NCBI GenBank assembly: GCA_001898255.1
Contig: MKTK01000011.1
Location: 21,009 to 85,008 of the forward strand
DNA length: 64,000 nt
Source of the DNA: Chryseobacterium sp. 39-10
GTDB lineage: Bacteria; Bacteroidota; Bacteroidia; Flavobacteriales; Weeksellaceae
Direction of reading: 5' to 3'
Below are positions 1,049 to 13,264 of the stretch, in pieces. Position 1 is the first letter of the stretch. Each line of letters starts with the position of its first letter. A program made the position numbers and the translations under genes. Under the pieces are notes generated by a model that had not been told where the DNA came from, did not search any database, and saw only the letters and a program-made list of their open reading frames with translations.

Positions 1049-4000
1049 ATGAGTAAATCTAAAGCAGTCGCAAAAACTCAGGGGAACGAAAGAATCAATT
1101 TCTCCGCAGCCAAGGGGAAAATTGAAACACCTGATTTTTTGGACATTCAGATCCAGTCATTCAAAGAGTTTTTCCAGTTGGATACCCTTCCGGAGCAGAG
1201 AGTTCACGAGACCCTCTACAAAACCTTTGAAGAAAACTTTCCCATTACAGACTCCAGAAATCAGTTTGTGCTTGAGTTTCTGGACTATTTGGTAGATTCC
1301 CCGCGTTACTCGATCGACGAGTGTGTGGAGAGAGGATTAACCTATTCGGTTCCTTTAAAAGCGCGTCTTAAATTATACTGTACCGATCCTGAACATGAGG
1401 ATTTCCAAACAGTGGTGCAAGATGTATATTTGGGGCCGGTTCCTTATATGACACCTTCGGGATCGTTTATCATTAATGGTGCAGAGCGTGTAATCGTTAC
1501 CCAGCTTCACCGTTCACCAGGGGTTTTCTTTGGTCAAACTTATCACGCCAACGGTACCAAATTGTATTATTCCAGAATTATCCCTTTCAAAGGATCTTGG
1601 ATGGAATTTACAACCGACATCAACAACGTAATGTATGCTTACATCGACCGTAAGAAAAAATTACCGTTAACAACACTTTTAAGAGCCATCGGATACGAAT
1701 CCGATAAAGATATTTTGCAAATTTTCGACCTTGCTGAAGAAGTGAAAGTTTCTAAAGCAGCACTTAAAAAAGTGGAAGGTAGAACTTTGGCAGCGAGAGT
1801 TTTGAACACTTGGTTCGAAGATTTCGTAGATGAAGATACTGGTGAAGTGGTTTCTATTGAAAGAAACGAAATCATCCTGGATCGTGAAACCGTTTTGGAA
1901 AAAGAGCACTTGGATCTTATTCTTGATTCAGGGGTGAAATCAATTTTGATTCACAAAGAAAACTCCAACGAATTCTCGATCATTCAGAATACACTTCAGA
2001 AAGACCCTACCAATTCAGAAAAAGAAGCGGTAGAATATATTTATCGTCAGTTGCGTAACGCAGATCCACCAGATGAGGAAACAGCAAGAGGAATTATCGA
2101 AAAACTATTCTTCTCGGAGCAACGTTACTCTCTGGGAGAAGTAGGTCGTTACCGTTTGAACAAAAAATTGGGATTAAACATTCCGGAAAAAACCGAAGTG
2201 TTAACCAAAGAAGATATCATCTCTATCGTTCGTCACTTAATCGAATTGGTGAACTCTAAAGCAGAGGTTGATGATATTGACCACTTGTCCAACAGAAGAA
2301 TTAAAACAGTTGGCGAGCAATTGGCGGGTCAGTTTGGTGTAGGTCTTTCCAGAATTGCAAGAACAATCCGTGAGAGGATGAACGTTCGTGATAATGAAAT
2401 CTTCACGCCGATTGATTTGGTGAATGCCAAAACATTAACCTCAGTGATCAATTCATTCTTCGGAACCAACCAGCTTTCTCAGTTCATGGACCAAACCAAT
2501 CCGCTGTCAGAAATCACGCACAAGCGTAGACTTTCTGCACTAGGACCTGGTGGTTTATCCAGAGAAAGAGCAGGTTTCGAGGTGCGTGACGTTCACCATA
2601 CCCACTACGGAAGAATCTGTCCGATTGAAACGCCTGAAGGACCAAACATTGGTTTGATCTCCTCACTGGGAATTTATGCTAAAATCAATAATTTAGGATT
2701 CATCGAGACTCCTTATAGAAAAGTAGCCAACGGTAAAGTTGACCTTAAAAATCCTGCAATCTTCCTTAATGCTGAAGATGAAGAAGATAAGGTTATTGCA
2801 CAGGCAAACGTTGAAATGACTGATGACGGAACCATCTCTACTGAAAGAGTTATTGCCCGACTAGATGGTGATTACCCAGTAGTGGAACCTAATGAAGTTA
2901 ATTTGATTGACGTAGCACCTAACCAGATTTCTGGTATTTCGGCGTCATTAATTCCGTTCTTGGAGCATGATGATGCGAACCGTGCCTTGATGGGATCCAA
3001 CATGATGCGTCAAGCGGTGCCGTTATTGAAGCCACAAGCTCCAATTGTGGGTACAGGTTTAGAGAAACAGGTTGCAACCGACTCCAGAGTATTGATTAAC
3101 GCTGAAGGAAATGGAGTTGTAGAGTATGTAGATGCTGACAAAATCACCATTAAATACGAAAGAAGCGAAGACGATGATTTAGTATCATTCGAATCTGCGA
3201 CCAAAAGTTATAAATTAACCAAATTCAGAAAAACCAACCAAAGTACAACCATTACTTTAAGACCAAACGTAAGGGTGGGCGACAAAGTAACCAAAGGACA
3301 AGTGCTTTGCGATGGATATGCAACAGAAAATGGTGAGCTCGCTTTGGGTAGAAACCTTACCGTGGCCTTCATGCCATGGAAAGGATACAACTTTGAGGAT
3401 GCCATCGTAATCAACGAAAAAGCAGTTCGCGAAGACTGGTTTACCTCCATCCATGTTGATGAATATTCTTTGGAAGTTCGGGACACCAAACTGGGTATGG
3501 AAGAACTGACCGCCGATATTCCAAACGTTTCCGAAGAAGCCACCAAAGACTTAGACGAAAACGGTATGATCCGTATCGGTGCAGAGGTGAAACCTGGTGA
3601 CATCATGATTGGTAAAATTACACCAAAAGGAGAATCTGATCCTACACCGGAAGAAAAACTTCTTAGAGCGATCTTCGGTGATAAAGCTGGCGATGTGAAA
3701 GATGCTTCTTTGAAAGCGGATTCATCGTTAAGAGGGGTGGTGATCAACAAAAAATTGTTCTCAAGAAACATTAAGGACAAAAAGAAAAGAACAGAAGAAA
3801 AACTGAAACTTGAAGAAATCGAAAATACCTACAAGGCAAAATTCGATGAGTTAAGAGACATGCTTCTGGAAAAATTAGGAACACTGGTCAACGGTAAAAC
3901 TTCTCAAGGCGTTAATAACGATTTAGACGAAGAAATTATCGGTAAAGGAGTGAAATTTACCACTAAATTACTACAAAGTGTTGAAGATTATGTAAATGTA

Positions 4001-4876
4001 AGTGGTTCGGATTGGACTGTTGATGCTGATAAAAATGAGCTCATCAAGCAATTGATCCATAATTACAAAATAAAATACAACGACATTCAAGGGGTTAAAA
4101 ACCGTGAGAAATTTGCGATTTCCATTGGAGACGAGCTACCTGCAGGTATCATTAAGCTAGCAAAAGTTTACATCGCTAAGAAACGTAAACTAAACGTTGG
4201 AGATAAAATGGCAGGTCGTCACGGTAACAAGGGGATTGTATCACGTATCGTTCGTCAGGAAGATATGCCTTTCTTAGAAGACGGAACACCAGTAGATATC
4301 GTATTGAACCCACTTGGCGTACCTTCTCGTATGAACATCGGGCAGATCTACGAAACTGTTCTTGGATGGGCTGGTAAAAACTTAGGTCTTAAGTTCGCAA
4401 CGCCAATCTTTGATGGAGCTTCTTTGGAGCAGATTACCGAATACACCGAGCAAGCAGGCGTACCTCAATTTGGTAGCACTTACCTTTATGATGGTGGTAC
4501 TGGTGAGCGTTTTGCGCAACCAGCAACCGTTGGGGTCATCTACATGTTGAAGTTAGGACACATGGTTGATGATAAAATGCACGCACGTTCTATTGGACCA
4601 TACTCATTGATCACGCAGCAACCTCTTGGTGGTAAAGCACAATTTGGTGGACAAAGATTTGGTGAGATGGAGGTTTGGGCACTGGAAGCATTCGGTGCAT
4701 CCAATATCCTTAGAGAAATTCTTACCGTAAAATCGGATGATGTAATTGGTAGGGCGAAAACGTACGAAGCAATTGCGAAAGGAGAAGCAATGCCAGAACC
4801 AGGTATTCCGGAATCCTTCAACGTATTGCTGCATGAGTTACAAGGTCTTGGACTTGATGTAAGACTTGAGGAATAA
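1049..4876 (+). CDS. rpoB: DNA-directed RNA polymerase subunit beta
   Basis: A 1275-residue catalytic beta subunit, close to the usual Bacteroidota length. It builds half of the active-site cleft of RNA polymerase. The rifampicin-binding cluster is intact ([14 protein letters not shown], then [14 protein letters not shown]), with Asp, His and Ser at the classic resistance positions, so it looks rifampicin-sensitive. The conserved C-terminal clamp-contact segments ([12 protein letters not shown] and [15 protein letters not shown]) are present. Base composition is balanced (29 of 60 G+C in one sampled line), unlike the DNA that follows. The striking feature is downstream: instead of rpoC, three unrelated AT-rich genes come next, and rpoC begins only at 8999. 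Confidence 0.99.
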
Positions 4877-4892
4877 TTTTTTAGTAATTAAT

Positions 4893-4947
4893 GAATTGAG
4901 AAATCAGAAAGTGAGATCATATGAAATTATTTTCTGACTCTCAATTC
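4893..4947 (+). repeat. Imperfect inverted repeat at the left edge of the rpoBC insertion
   Basis: GAATTGAG (4893-4900) pairs with CTCAATTC (4940-4947), and TCAGAAA (4904-4910) with TTTCTGA (4931-4937), around a 20-nt loop. There is no clean U-run, so it is not a typical terminator. Its layout resembles the long inverted repeat after rpoC. It could be an RNA-processing hairpin or a dispersed intergenic palindrome. Confidence 0.55.
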
Positions 4948-4972
4948 TCGAAAATTATTTTTAATATTAGTA

Positions 4973-6202
4973 ATGAAAGAACTAATTTTTAGAAAGGAAA
5001 ATTTTATCTTACTATTTTTTTTAGCAATCTACATTTTTTCGGTGGGTTCTGATCCTATATTGGGTGATAGCTTGCCATTTACAGTAGGTGCCTCCAAAGG
5101 TTATGAGTTAGAGTCGAACGCAACTAATCACTTTCTGTATATAAATTTTTTGGCATTAGTCCACAAGATTATTCCATTTATAAACCCACATTATCTTTTT
5201 TCGGGAATCAGTGTGATTTGTTCTGTTTTGTCTTTGCTAATACTTCGAAATATCTTATTGCTCTTCAACTTCAGTAACATCGTTTGTAATGTAGTAACTG
5301 TTTTGTTTGGGTTTTCGTTTACCTTTTGGCGGATTTCCATTTTTACAGAAGTGTATAGTTTTTACATCTTGTTTGTGACCATATTTTTGTATAATGTTTT
5401 TTCTTATATTAAAGAGCAAAGAATAGATAATTTATATGGGGCGGCAATATTTTTTGGGATCATGTTTTTAATTCATATTCAGACAATATTATTAATACCT
5501 TTTTATTTGTATTTTTTGTACAAAAATTTACATGAAAAATCAAAAACAGCGATTGCTGTTTTGATACCTATTGTTTTTTTTTCAGTACTGTTAATCCCTG
5601 TAGTTTTGGGGAGGAATAACTTTATTGCAATATTTACGGATAATGCTTGGGGAAGTTCTTTTTTTAGTCTTGAATTAGAATCAATATTGAGAAGCGCAGT
5701 ACGTAATACGGGGTTTTTGCTTTATAATTTTATGTTCTTTATCGCTTTTGCATTCAAAGGTTTCAAAGATTTAGAAAACAAGGAATATTTTTTTATTGGA
5801 ATTATACCCTATATTTTTTTTATATTGAAACATGATGTTTCCGACTCTTATGTATTTCAGTTGGTTCCTTATCTTTTTTTATTAATCATGATAGCAAGTG
5901 GATTATCAAAATTGAATGATTTCAAGTGGATGTATATTGCTGTGTTTTCGTTTCCGCTTGTTTATTTTATAAATTATAAAATAGTAGAATGTACTGATGT
6001 AGGAAAGAGAATAGATCGTGAAACTGGCTTTAAAGGCGGTACAAAATATTTCTTTTTCCCACCGCTTAAAGGAAACCCAAGTATTGAAGAGTTTATTTCA
6101 GCTTATGAAAAGGGACAGTTTAAGAAATTACCTGTCTTGGAACAAGAAAACTATAAAAGAATGTATTTATACGCAAAAGAATGGAGATTAATTAAAACTT
6201 AA
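4973..6202 (+). CDS. Polytopic membrane protein, DUF2723-like (GT-C type)
   Basis: A 409-residue protein with about nine or ten hydrophobic segments. Its N-terminal layout resembles DUF2723 proteins: an acidic residue in a loop after the first membrane helix (GDSLPF), then a His/Tyr segment ([15 protein letters not shown]), a helix pair, and the segment [14 protein letters not shown], which matches the family's FW...EVY pattern. DUF2723 proteins are thought to be GT-C-fold membrane glycosyltransferases, but the substrate is unknown. It is the first gene of the rpoB-rpoC insertion and very AT-rich. The next gene starts 10 nt downstream. The family call is moderate; membrane location is secure. 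Confidence 0.6.
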
Positions 6203-6212
6203 ATATTATTAT

Positions 6213-7380
6213 ATGAAATTTAAATTATGTTTTATGAGTATGATGGTAAGTGTTATACTCCACGCACAAGATTGGGCTTTGTTTGGTAATGCAAACACTA
6301 CGCCTCAACAAAATTTTATTGGTACTACTGATAATCAAGATTTATTGCTTAAAACCAATAATATCGAAAGACTTCGAATCTCTAATACCGGCAGATTTAT
6401 TTTTCAAGGTGTTATAGGAGGGGAAAATGTATGGAACAAAAATTTATTTTTTGGCGGGGGGGGTAGATTATCCCACTCGAGGCAATAACACAGTTTTCGG
6501 TTTCGGTGCTTTAGCACTTAATATTAATGGTGAAGGGAACACAGCATTTGGAACTAATTCTATGTCACAACTTATAAGTGGAAATGAGAATACTTCAATA
6601 GGAGTAAATAGTATGGGTAAAGCTAATAATGCAGGAGGAAATGTGAGTTTTGGGAACAATAGCATGGAGGGCTTGGGGGGGTACAATGAGAATGTAGCAA
6701 TTGGTTTTATGTCCTTTAGAAGAGAGTTTGGACAATCATCAGAGAGTGTTTCGTATAATACTGTTATTGGTAGTAGGGCTCTTGCGTATTTAAGAACTGG
6801 TCAAAATAATATTGCAATTGGTTATAGCTCTATTAAACCTATTGTTTCAGGAGATAATAATGTATCTATTGGTGCAAATACTGGACTTAATCTCATTACA
6901 GGAAATGGAAATATTCTAATAGGAAATAATACGTCAACCTCTTCAAGTAATTCTAATAATGAATTAAATATTGGCAATTGGATATATGGGAAAGGAGGAA
7001 CAATTGGTATTGGAACTTCAAATGTAAATTGTAGTAATTGTACGGGTTACAAGTTGTTTGTAAAAGAAGGGATAAAAACCGAAAAGATAAAAGTTGAGTT
7101 TGCTGATATGAATGGTTGGGCAGATTATGTTTTTGAGAAAGATTACCCACTAATGTCTATAAAAGAAGTTAAGAATTTTATAGAAAAAAATAAGCACTTA
7201 CCCGAAGTTCCTACCGCTGAAGATGTTATGAAAAATGGTTTGGAATTGAAAGAGTTTAATACTTTGTTATTAAAAAAGATCGAAGAACTGACTTTACATA
7301 TTATATACCTACATGAAAAGTTGGAAGAACAAAATGACAAAATGGACAAATTGGAAAAATTGGAACAAAAAAATAAATGA
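6213..7380 (+). pseudogene. Beta-roll fibre-like surface protein, frameshifted at a G8 tract
   Basis: Two overlapping frames form one gene. Frame one (6213-6488) has a signal peptide ([19 protein letters not shown]) and an N-terminal segment. It is closed soon after a run of eight G (6456-6463). The rest lies in the +1 frame to 7380. Removing one G would restore a 388-residue protein. The middle carries about eight 14-residue repeats of the type GxNNxAIGxxS, as in YadA-like heads and phage tail-fibre proteins. The end has the Bacteroidota motif NKHLPEVPTAEDV followed by a coiled coil. A second run of seven G sits at 6675-6681. Either the gene is phase-variable, or it is broken, or the run was miscalled. 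Its stop overlaps the next start. Confidence 0.75.
6456..6463 (+). repeat. G8 homopolymer tract (possible phase-variation switch)
   Basis: Eight consecutive G in a very AT-rich gene, exactly where the two halves of the fibre-like coding sequence change frame. Seven G would give one continuous frame reading [14 protein letters not shown]. Slipped-strand repair at such tracts is a known on/off switch for surface genes. Confidence 0.6.
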
Positions 7381-8981
7381 TGAGAACTGTTCTTTGCTTT
7401 TTATTTTTTTTTAGTGGATTTTATTTTTTCTCCGCACAAGAGAAAGATCCTTTCCACAGAACTTGTGCCCTTAATGCACCTGCTGAAGTTGAGGATTTTT
7501 TGCTATCAGGTCGTAACTGCGGGAATACTTCAGCGTATTATAATCCTAATCAACATGCAAATCCTTTATATATTCCTCAAATTAGTGATGATATTATATA
7601 TATAAAGATTAACTTTATTTTTTTAACAAAACCTGATGGAACGGGTAATTTCGAGGAAAATAATCTCGAACATCAGGAATTTATTAATAATTTAATTGCA
7701 GCTTTTAATGGAAGATTAGCACATATTGATCCATCTGTGAGTGGTTGTGAAGTTTTTCCGCAATCAGTTATTGATACTAGAATAAGGGTAATTGTTAATA
7801 AGATATGGAAAGTGGATCCTGCTTGGGATTATCTAGTAACAGGATTTAATCCCTCGGCAAATAATCCATATGATAATAATAGCGTTTTAATCCCTGGTTC
7901 AACTTATTACTATTCTTATTTGGATTATGATGCTTCCATTCCGAAAGGGTTAAATATCACTTTTGCTAATAATGGAACCATTTATTCGCAGTACCAGACT
8001 GGGGATTTTTCTAAAACGCCATTAGATTGGGCTGTTTCGGAGTTTCCGTTTTTTAATGAGTTAAGTAATAAATCAAGACAATTTTGGCCTGATGTATATA
8101 ATGGTTTTTTACGGAGAAAGCATTTTATTGTAAATAATCCAAATTACGGAAATCCTAGTTGGGAAACAGTTAAAGCGTGGTATTACGGAGATATGGGATA
8201 TAGAGGAATGGTACACGAATTAGGGCATAGTTTGGATTTATATCATCACGATTGTGGAGCTAATATTATGAGTTATTCTGCTGGTAATCATAACTATTTG
8301 AGTATTGAAGATATTTCAAGAATGTACCAAAGTGCATCAGTTTCGAGTGTGAGACAATATTTTACAGAAAATTCTTTTAAAAGCAACAGTATCTATGTGA
8401 ATATGGACGAGCTTTGGGATATTAATTTTAGAAATTATTCTAATGTTAGAGTTGATAACAACTCAAGTTTAAGAACAACATGTAGAATTATAATGGCTCC
8501 TGAAAGTAAAGTTATTGTAAGAAATGGAAGTAATTTCATTATTGAGGGCGCAGATGTTAGTTCTGCAAATAATACATCATGGAATGGTATTAAAGTCGAA
8601 GGGAATGGATATTGCTTGATATTACCGGATACGGCGATTGATAATGGCTATTTTTATGCTTATACTGATAATACAATTTTACCAAATGGCAAATCTACAG
8701 ATGATAATTTCAGCAATATTAAAATGAGTGCCGAAACATTAGAAGGGCTACATTCTCAAAACTTATTCAGTATTTACCCTAATCCAACAGGAGAATTTAT
8801 TTATATTAAATCCAGTGAAAAAATAAGAGTTTTATCTGTTTATGATAGAATGGGGCAAAAAATAATCAGTATTAGAGACGAAGCAAACAAAATTGATGTG
8901 AAGAATGTCCCAAGCGGAGTTTATATTTTGGAGGTTAAGACGGATCAAGGCATCATAACAAAGAAATTTATAAAAAAATAA
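7377..8981 (+). CDS. Secreted metzincin-type zinc metalloprotease with T9SS type A sorting domain
   Basis: A 534-residue exported protein. The signal peptide (about 1-20) ends near FSAQ. The zinc site [11 protein letters not shown] (H280, E281, H284, H290) fits HExxHxxxxxH, and NIMSYS supplies the Met-turn (M298), the signature of metzincins. The last 75 or so residues are a T9SS type A sorting domain: [11 protein letters not shown], then YDRMGQKI, then [10 protein letters not shown] and a basic end. Known family features predict export to the cell surface or medium through the T9SS; the substrate is unknown. The ATG overlaps the previous stop (ATGA), implying coupled translation. It is the last gene of the insertion and ends 17 nt before rpoC. 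Confidence 0.85.
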
Positions 8982-8998
8982 TAGATAAAATATTTTTT

Positions 8999-11900
8999 AT
9001 GTCAAATAAAAATAAATCAAGCAAATTTAGTAAGATCGCGATCGGTCTGGCTTCACCAGAATCCATCCTTCAGGAGTCAAGAGGAGAGGTGCTGAAGCCC
9101 GAAACCATCAACTACAGAACGCACAAACCCGAAAGAGACGGTTTGTTCTGTGAAAAAATATTCGGTCCTGTAAAGGATTACGAATGTGCCTGCGGAAAAT
9201 ACAAACGTATCCGTTATAAAGGTATCGTTTGCGACCGTTGTGGTGTAGAAGTTACCGAGAAAAAAGTACGTCGTGAGCGTATTGGTCACATTAATCTTGT
9301 GGTTCCTATTGCTCACATCTGGTATTTCCGTTCGTTGCCGAATAAAATTGGTTACTTGTTAGGATTGCCTTCCAAGAAATTGGATATGATTATCTACTAT
9401 GAAAGATATGTAGTTATTCAGCCAGGTATCGCTAAAAAGGCAGATGGTTCCGATTTCGATGATATGGAATTTTTAACAGAAGAAGAGTATCTTGATATTT
9501 TGGATACGCTTCCTGTAGAAAACCAATATCTTGACGATTCGGATCCCAATAAATTTGTGGCAAAAATGGGTGCAGAGGCCGTTGAAGGATTGCTGAAAAG
9601 AATCGATCTGGATGCATTGTCTTTCGACCTTCGTCACAAAGCACACAACGAATCATCAAAGCAAAGAAGAACAGAAGCGCTGAAAAGACTGAACGTGGTA
9701 GAAGCACTTCGTGGTGCCAACACCAGAATGATCAATAAACCAGAATGGATGATCATGCGTGTACTTCCAGTTATTCCACCAGAATTAAGACCATTGGTTC
9801 CGTTGGATGGAGGACGTTTTGCAACCTCAGACTTGAATGATCTTTACCGTCGTGTGATCATCAGAAATAACCGTTTGAAAAGATTACTGGAAATTAAAGC
9901 TCCAGAAGTGATCTTGAGAAACGAAAAACGTATGCTTCAAGAATCTGTAGATTCGTTGTTCGATAACACCAGAAAATCTTCTGCTGTAAAATCGGAATCC
10001 AACAGACCATTGAAATCACTTTCTGATTCTTTGAAAGGTAAACAAGGTCGTTTCCGTCAGAACTTATTAGGTAAGCGTGTTGACTATTCAGCTCGTTCGG
10101 TAATTGTTGTTGGTCCAAACCTACAACTTCACGAATGTGGTATTCCTAAAGATATGGCAGCCGAATTGTACAAACCATTCATCATCAGAAAATTGATTGA
10201 GAGAGGAATTGTAAAAACGGTAAAATCAGCAAAAAGAATCATCGATAGAAAAGAACCTGTCGTTTATGATATCCTTGAAAACGTGATGAAAGGTCACCCA
10301 GTTCTTCTGAACCGTGCGCCTACGCTTCACCGTTTGGGTATCCAGGCATTCCAGCCGAAGATGATTGAAGGCAAAGCCATCCAACTTCACCCATTGGTAA
10401 CAACGGCATTCAACGCCGATTTCGATGGTGACCAGATGGCGGTGCACTTACCTTTGGGCCCAGAAGCTATTTTGGAAGCTCAGTTATTGATGTTAGGTTC
10501 TCAAAATATCCTTAACCCAGCGAATGGTTCTCCAATTACCGTACCTTCTCAGGACATGGTATTGGGGCTATACTTCATGACGAAACAGTTGGATTCTACT
10601 GATGAGGTTAAAGTGAAAGGAGAAGGACTTGCTTTCTACTCTCCGGAAGAGGTAGAAATCGCTTATGCAGAAGGACAAGTTTCTCTTAACGCAAAAGTAA
10701 GATGTAAACTTCCTGTAAAAGAAGAAGGAGAATTGGTGATTCGCCTTATCGAAACTACTGTTGGCCGAATTTTATTCAACCAAATCGTGCCAAAAGAAGT
10801 TGGTTTCGTTAACGAATTGCTTACCAAAAAATCTTTGAGAAATGTAATCGGTAGAATTCTTGCAGACACGGACTTCCCAACAACAGTGAAGTTCTTGGAT
10901 GATATGAAAAATCTAGGATACTCTAACGCATTCAAAGGAGGACTTTCGTTCTCATTGGGCGATATTGTAATTCCAGCCGAGAAGAAAAAAATGATCGCTA
11001 CCGCAGTAGAAAATGTGGATGAAATTAAAGCGAACTATAACATGGGTCTTATCACCGATACCGAAAGATACAACCAGGTAATCGACGTTTGGACCAATAC
11101 CAACGCAGGACTAACCGAGATGATTATGAGCAGAATGAAAACCGACCAAGGTGGGTTCAACTCTGTTTATATGATGCTTGATTCCGGGGCGAGGGGTTCT
11201 AAAGAACAGATTCGTCAGTTATCCGGAATGAGAGGTTTGATGGCCAAACCACAAAAAGCCGGTTCTACAGGAGCAGAGATCATCGAAAACCCGATTGTGG
11301 CGAACTTTAAAGAGGGACTTTCCATTTTGGAATACTTCATCTCCACCCACGGTGCTCGTAAAGGTCTTGCGGATACCGCACTTAAAACCGCCGATGCTGG
11401 TTACTTAACCAGAAGATTGGTAGACGTTGCACAAGATGTTATCATTACAGAAGACGATTGTGGCACTTTAAGAGGTACCGAAATTACGCCATTGAAGAAA
11501 AACGACGAAATCGTTGAGAAAATTTCTGAAAGAATCTTGGGTAGAGTTTCTCTGCACAACATTTATCATCCAGAAACCGACGAAATCATCATGGAAGCAG
11601 ATACACTGATTGATGAAGTTTATGCAAAACAAATCGAGGAAGCAGGTATTGAAGTGGTAGAAGTTCGTTCTCCATTAACCTGCGAAGCCAAAAAAGGAAT
11701 TTGTGCAGCATGTTATGGTAGAAACTTAGCGACGGGTAAAACAATTCACATGGGTGAAGCTGTAGGGGTAATTGCCGCTCAGTCCATCGGTGAACCAGGA
11801 ACACAGTTGACGCTTAGAACCTTCCACCAAGGGGGAACTGCAGGTAACGTTTCGGTGAATCCGTTTATTGAAGCAAGAAGAGATGGTATCGTAGAAATGG

Positions 11901-13264
11901 ACGAAGTGCGTACCGTAACTTCTGAAAACGAAGAAGGTAAGAAAGCAGAAATCCTTGTGTCACGTTCTACAGAATTCCGTTTGGTAGCAGATAATTCGAC
12001 AAGAACACCATTGATGGTAGCCAACGTTCCTTATGGTTCCGAAATCTTCGTGAAGCCGGGCGAAAAGGTGAAAAAAGGTGATATGATCGCCAAATGGGAT
12101 CCTTATAACGCGGTAATTATTGCAGAAACTTCTGGTAAAGTAGAATACGAAGATATTATTCAGGGTATTTCATTCCAGTTAGAAATTGACGAGCAAACCG
12201 GTTTCGAAGAAAAAGTAATCTCCGAATCCAGAAATAAAAAAGCAGTACCAACGCTGAAAGTGGTTGATGCCAAAGGCGTTGAGCAGAAAGCATACAATTT
12301 ACCGGTTGGTGCCCACTTAATGGTAAACGATGGTGAGAAAATTAAGGCAGGTAAAGTTTTGATCAAGATCCCTAGAAAATCTGCGAAAGCAGGGGATATT
12401 ACCGGTGGTTTACCAAGGGTAACCGAATTGTTCGAAGCAAGAAACCCATCAAATCCAGCGGTTGTTACAGAAATCGACGGGGTAGTTTCTTACGGTAAAA
12501 TTAAAAGAGGTAACCGCGAATTGATCGTGGAAGCTAAAACCGGGGAAATTTCTAAGTATTTGGTGAAACTATCCAACCAAATTTTGGTGCAGGAGAACGA
12601 CTTCGTGAGAGCAGGTTCGCCACTTTCTGATGGTTCCATTACGCCAGACGATATCCTTAAAATTAAAGGGCCAACTGCAGTACAGGAATATCTTGTGAAC
12701 GAAATCCAAGAGGTTTACCGTTTGCAAGGGGTGAAAATTGATGACAAACATTTCGAAATCATCGTTCGTCAGATGATGACTAAAGTAGAAATTGTTGATG
12801 GTGGAGATACCCAGTTCTTGGAAGGTGCATTGGAGCACAAATACGACTTCTTAGAAGAAAACAACAGAGTTTTCGGTCTAAAAGTAGTTGTAGAAGCTGG
12901 AGATTCTAAAGAATTTAAACCAGGACAAATGATCACCGCAAGAGAGTTAAGAGACGAGAACTCTAAACTGAAACGCGAAGATCTGCAATTGGTTGAAGTT
13001 CGTGAGGCACTTCCTGCAACGGCAACTCCGGTGCTTCAAGGTATTACCAGAGCGGCATTGCAAACCAAATCGTTCATGTCGGCTGCATCATTCCAGGAAA
13101 CTACAAAAGTACTGAACGAAGCTGCGGTTTCCGGTAAAATCGATTACCTTGGTGGTCTTAAAGAAAACGTTATCGTAGGACACAGAATTCCTGCAGGTAC
13201 CGGTCTTAAAGATTACCAAAGCATCATCGTCGGTTCTAAAAAAGAATTCGAAGACATTAACTAA
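8999..13264 (+). CDS. rpoC: DNA-directed RNA polymerase subunit beta'
   Basis: A 1421-residue beta' subunit of normal Bacteroidota length. The first zinc site is formed by C63, C65, C78 and C81 (YECACGKY and IVCDRCGVE). The catalytic magnesium motif NADFDGD spans residues 472-478. The second zinc site is in EDDCGTL and [15 protein letters not shown]. The trigger-loop region follows ([19 protein letters not shown]). It pairs with RpoB to form the active centre. The start lies only 17 nt after the inserted protease gene, with no visible promoter of its own. Expression therefore probably depends on transcripts from rpoB or from inside the insert, which is unusual for an essential gene. Confidence 0.99.

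Follow-up and report, generated by a model that had tools for sequence, protein, structure and literature searches.

In Neisseria, Campylobacter, and Helicobacter, phase variation at G tracts is well established. Like the poly-G surface genes of these genera, a fibre-like gene of the Chryseobacterium genome analysed here has a G tract in its coding frame near the 5' end, is intact in the rest of its length, and encodes a putative surface or secreted product. It differs from them in its short tract (eight G), in its location between rpoB and rpoC, and in its host, an AT-rich member of the Bacteroidota with few G tracts and with intact mutS and mutL; moreover, the gene is known here from one sequence and a single tract length. 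Our literature search for G-tract phase variation in the Flavobacteriales family Weeksellaceae (Bacteroidota) found no description. The mechanism considered below is a known one, while its place is unusual.

NgoAV, a type I restriction–modification system of Neisseria gonorrhoeae, has a tract at hsdS1/hsdS2 that is mostly G7 and ranges from G6 to G9 among strains, and the two hsdS halves become fused when one G is lost (PMC9577141). The HsdS of our genome is likewise cut at a poly-G tract into halves of about 200 aa, beside hsdM and hsdR, but the tract is G8 and the locus also contains an ATPase gene and a RhuM-like gene. The third comparison is with the Chryseobacterium-type pairs of a fibre gene and type IX secretion (T9SS) cargo (L017-L034, L172, L173, and L179-L192), which share the N- and C-terminal ends of our fibre protein and usually have a T9SS-sorted partner as well. 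Unlike our gene, they are located at other loci (near obgE or after nusG), have G runs of at most 6, and are in frame except in C. soli.

The frame break of the fibre gene and its protein family

In the 64-kb window, which is the whole stretch of DNA analysed, the upstream frame of the fibre gene enters the G8 tract and meets a stop 25 bases past it, and a second frame, which starts before the tract, is open to the end of the gene (Table 1). The sequence-only reading had placed the frame change exactly at these eight G and had stated that seven G would give one protein of 388 residues; the coordinates and both frames agree with the former, and the latter is borne out by modelling of the tract length. 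Seven G give 388 aa and 10 G give 389 aa, whereas lengths of 5, 6, 8, 9, and 11 give only 83–92 aa. The product of the G8 state consists of a signal-peptide-like start, the N-terminal domain, and 9 altered residues, and the whole protein of the N-terminal domain, beta-roll repeats, a conserved C-terminal region, and a coiled coil. The second G tract, to which the same reading had drawn attention, is present but lies in frame and is itself no break. An internal ATG at 6427 was rejected as the true start, as the homologues are continuous through this region.

Table 1. Positions of the features discussed (window positions unless a contig is given)
Feature	Position	Strand	Remark
rpoB	1049..4876	+	
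rpoB–rpoC insert	4877..8998	+	4.1 kb, three genes
Membrane protein	4973..6202	+	weakly similar to TMEM260-like/PMT_2 mannosyltransferases (under curated cut-off)
Whole fibre gene	6213..7380	+	388 aa with seven G
Upstream frame of fibre gene	6213..6488	+	91-aa product in G8 state
G8 tract at frame break	6456..6463	+	on invariant Gly-Gly-Gly of the protein family
Second tract, G7	6675..6681	+	in frame; possible second slippage site
HExxH metalloprotease-like protein with T9SS type A sorting domain	7377..8981	+	ATG overlaps fibre stop (ATGA)
rpoC	8999..13264	+	17 bp past protease stop
G8 splitting hsdS	G000:C7:116620-116627 (L171:11620-11627)	minus	type I restriction–modification locus
G7 breaking gene of secreted RCC1-like (beta-propeller) protein	G000:C8:201088-201094 (L170:6088-6094)		

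The protein read through the tract can be aligned over its whole length with 22 intact Chryseobacterium homologues (41–49% identity), and the Gly-Gly-Gly at the tract is invariant in all 23 aligned sequences. The homologues encode these glycines by mixed GGN codons, and the tract itself is not conserved; the longest G run in the 22 intact homologues is 3 to 6. An invariant Gly-Gly-Gly in mixed codons indicates that the seven-G frame is ancestral and that G8 represents a gain of one base. The fibre gene has no second lesion in its 388 codons, keeps every family-invariant residue, and is intact at another tract length. All homologues are in frame but one, that of Chryseobacterium soli, where the frame breaks around an A7 run (L033:5407-5413).

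"Fibre" is used here as a description and not as a family assignment. Searches of the read-through protein found no family match in Pfam and nothing useful in NCBIfam or among PDB sequences. An AlphaFold model made with the 23 sequences has low confidence (mean pLDDT 61) and is built of short beta-strand repeats, with a long helix at the C-terminal end; a fold search of the PDB with this model gave no match. In PHROGs, the repeat part matches phage structural and tail-spike proteins, which we do not take as a sign of phage origin. Neither the C-terminal membrane-anchor domain nor a curated head domain of the trimeric autotransporters (YadA-like) was found, as the read-through protein has no Pfam match and its C-terminal end is predicted to be a long helix. 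Domain searches for a type IX secretion substrate found no C-terminal sorting domain in the fibre protein, whereas the downstream protease has one. The signal-peptide-like start, the beta-roll repeats, the C-terminal coiled coil, and the T9SS-sorted partner together make the surface fibre proposed by the sequence-only reading plausible.

Frame breaks at G runs in the genome

The count of G7 words in the window is by itself unremarkable under a dinucleotide null (3 found versus 3.15 predicted by a dinucleotide shuffle of the window). Across the 3.07-Mb genome, runs of at least seven G are strongly depleted, with 14 G7 words in 10 tracts, about one tenth of the prediction from the dinucleotide null. 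The G8 and G7 of the fibre gene are the sole G or C runs of at least 6 in the window. Two G tracts inside one gene are unusual, as by our own arithmetic the number of pairs within 220 bp expected for 10 random tracts is about 0.006, although the fibre gene is Gly-rich and G runs therefore arise more easily there than in most genes.

We examined all 10 tracts of at least seven G in the genome and found 6 of them on the sense strand of genes. The frame is kept at half of these six, namely at the G7 of the fibre gene, in a SusC-type receptor, and where a porin-like gene ends. The other three are exact frame breaks, in the fibre gene, in HsdS, and in the gene for an RCC1-like secreted protein. The two parts of HsdS (200 and 203 aa) each have Methylase_S and belong to a complete hsdM-hsdS-hsdR locus. 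By frame arithmetic, the split would be closed by one more or two fewer G, unlike the correction of the fibre gene. The RCC1-like orthologue in another genome (G007, L200) has a continuous frame.

As a control, we took the A or T runs of at least 7 inside open genes in stretches of this assembly totalling 458 kb (n = 234). No true break was found at any of the 234 runs, and the candidate breaks among them resemble ordinary gene boundaries; there were also no breaks at three G6 runs. The difference between G and A/T runs gave p = 8.8e-6 in Fisher's test, and p = 3.5e-4 when the index gene was left out. This makes a general sequencing fault unlikely, and we discarded general homopolymer error as a cause on the basis of this control. 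A G8 run alone proves nothing, since hemE, murA, and dnaK, which are housekeeping genes, also have such runs in the genus.

Two related observations were made in other genomes of the genus. In one of them, an ATPase gene has its frame broken by nine consecutive C (L198:2233-2241, G035:C59), and in the other a G13 run is located in an intergenic stretch beside a type I hsdR-like gene (L197:2097-2109, G016:C3).

Phase variation and other explanations of the break

It is fairly probable, judging from these sequence patterns, that the fibre gene is a phase-variable (contingency) gene that switches through slippage at G8. The homopolymer is located exactly at the break and within the coding frame, the gene would be whole at another tract length and carries no other lesion, and several genes of this genome break at G repeats (three of six, versus none of the A/T runs). 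A fibre, HsdS, and an RCC1-like protein belong to gene classes typical of phase variation, and the HsdS split parallels that of NgoAV. We infer that G8 may slip during replication in living cells and gain or lose a G, which would give a reversible switch, possibly of some benefit, between off, with the 91-aa stub at G8, and on, with a fibre of 388 or 389 aa at G7 or G10. The genome has mutS and mutL, so slippage at G7–G8 should stay modest and may be slow. An on/off switch by slippage had also been proposed by the sequence-only reading; the two further genes broken at G7 and G8, the lack of A/T breaks, and the otherwise conserved fibre gene add to this proposal, in which the switching itself is presumed.

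The break could also mark a young pseudogene, in which G8 arose by a single slippage and then became fixed in its lineage, with no functional switching. Only the broken state has been seen, and the C. soli homologue, which is broken elsewhere, indicates that the family occasionally decays. We nevertheless consider a pseudogene unlikely, because decay has left neither a second lesion in the reading frame nor a change at any family-invariant residue, and because three such genes occur in one genome, all at G runs. Homopolymers are a classic source of sequencing errors, and this is a draft genome of 41 contigs; if the true tract were G7, the gene would be intact and its error-free version would equal the family frame. 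The A/T runs of the control are of equal or greater length and show no break, nor do the G6 runs, and the HsdS frame would have to be mended differently, by a gain of one G or a loss of two, all of which makes an error of sequencing or assembly quite improbable for the fibre gene. A fault that affects G runs alone is conceivable but unlikely.

A different kind of explanation is recoding, in which +1 ribosomal frameshifting, or slippage of RNA polymerase on G8, yields both the stub and the fibre from one DNA sequence, with a fixed fraction of full-length product. Reading the tract with a +1 step does give the 388-aa protein, and the frame beyond it has been maintained, but the frame is continuous in all homologues but one, and slippage of bacterial RNA polymerase is best known on A/T runs. 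The chance that recoding accounts for the break is therefore very slight, and phase variation is the explanation we retain.

The fibre–protease pair within the rpoB–rpoC unit

The fibre gene had been described as lying inside the rpo operon, which is correct by the gene coordinates and by the rpoB–rpoC spacing. In the genus this spacing is usually 69–200 bp, mostly 81–111, and a gap of more than 900 bp is found in 5 of 126 family genomes (about 4%, by coordinates), including this one. The gap of G028 holds a membrane protein of the type encoded by the first gene of our insert, those of G025 and G047 hold a PhyH-like dioxygenase, and that of G067 holds two small secreted-type proteins. The junction accepts accessory genes in these genomes (window 4877-8998; L041, L058, L195, and L196).

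No intrinsic terminator was found on the + strand of the insert, and scans of the insert for sigma-70 and flavobacterial promoters were at or below chance. With neither a + strand terminator nor a flavobacterial promoter motif in the insert, rpoC is probably transcribed through it. The sorting domain of the protease is Por_Secre_tail, and the overlap of its start with the fibre stop suggests that the two genes are probably translated in coupling. We infer from this overlap that an off state of the fibre gene should also cut the translation of the protease.

In relatives, a T9SS-sorted protein is usually encoded only a few bases after the fibre-type gene; these partners are metalloproteases (in G032 and in genera g9 and g21), a subtilase, and other cargo. 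The pair looks like a mobile two-gene module, in which the first gene encodes a signal-peptide protein whose ends are conserved and whose middle varies, and the second a T9SS-sorted protease or other cargo, with examples in genus g21 (L179, L181, and L185), in G032 (L172 and L173), and at L017-L034. It is located after a nusG-like gene in three genomes of genus g21 and near obgE in Chryseobacterium, sometimes in tandem copies.

As for rpoC, into which read-through could fall in the off state according to the sequence-only reading, the overlapping protease gene would be a closer target. A strong effect on rpoC seems unlikely to be tolerated, since the gene is essential. A contingency locus inside the essential rpoB–rpoC unit, in which random slippage would switch the fibre and the coupled protease and, by polarity, shift rpoC expression between sister cells, is a speculative and very improbable extension of the phase-variation reading. 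If phase variation of the fibre gene is true, this genome would have a small, definable set of switches, comprising the fibre, the restriction specificity subunit, and the RCC1-like secreted protein. One of these switches would ride on the RNA polymerase operon, where both the switching rate and any polar effect on rpoC would be directly measurable.
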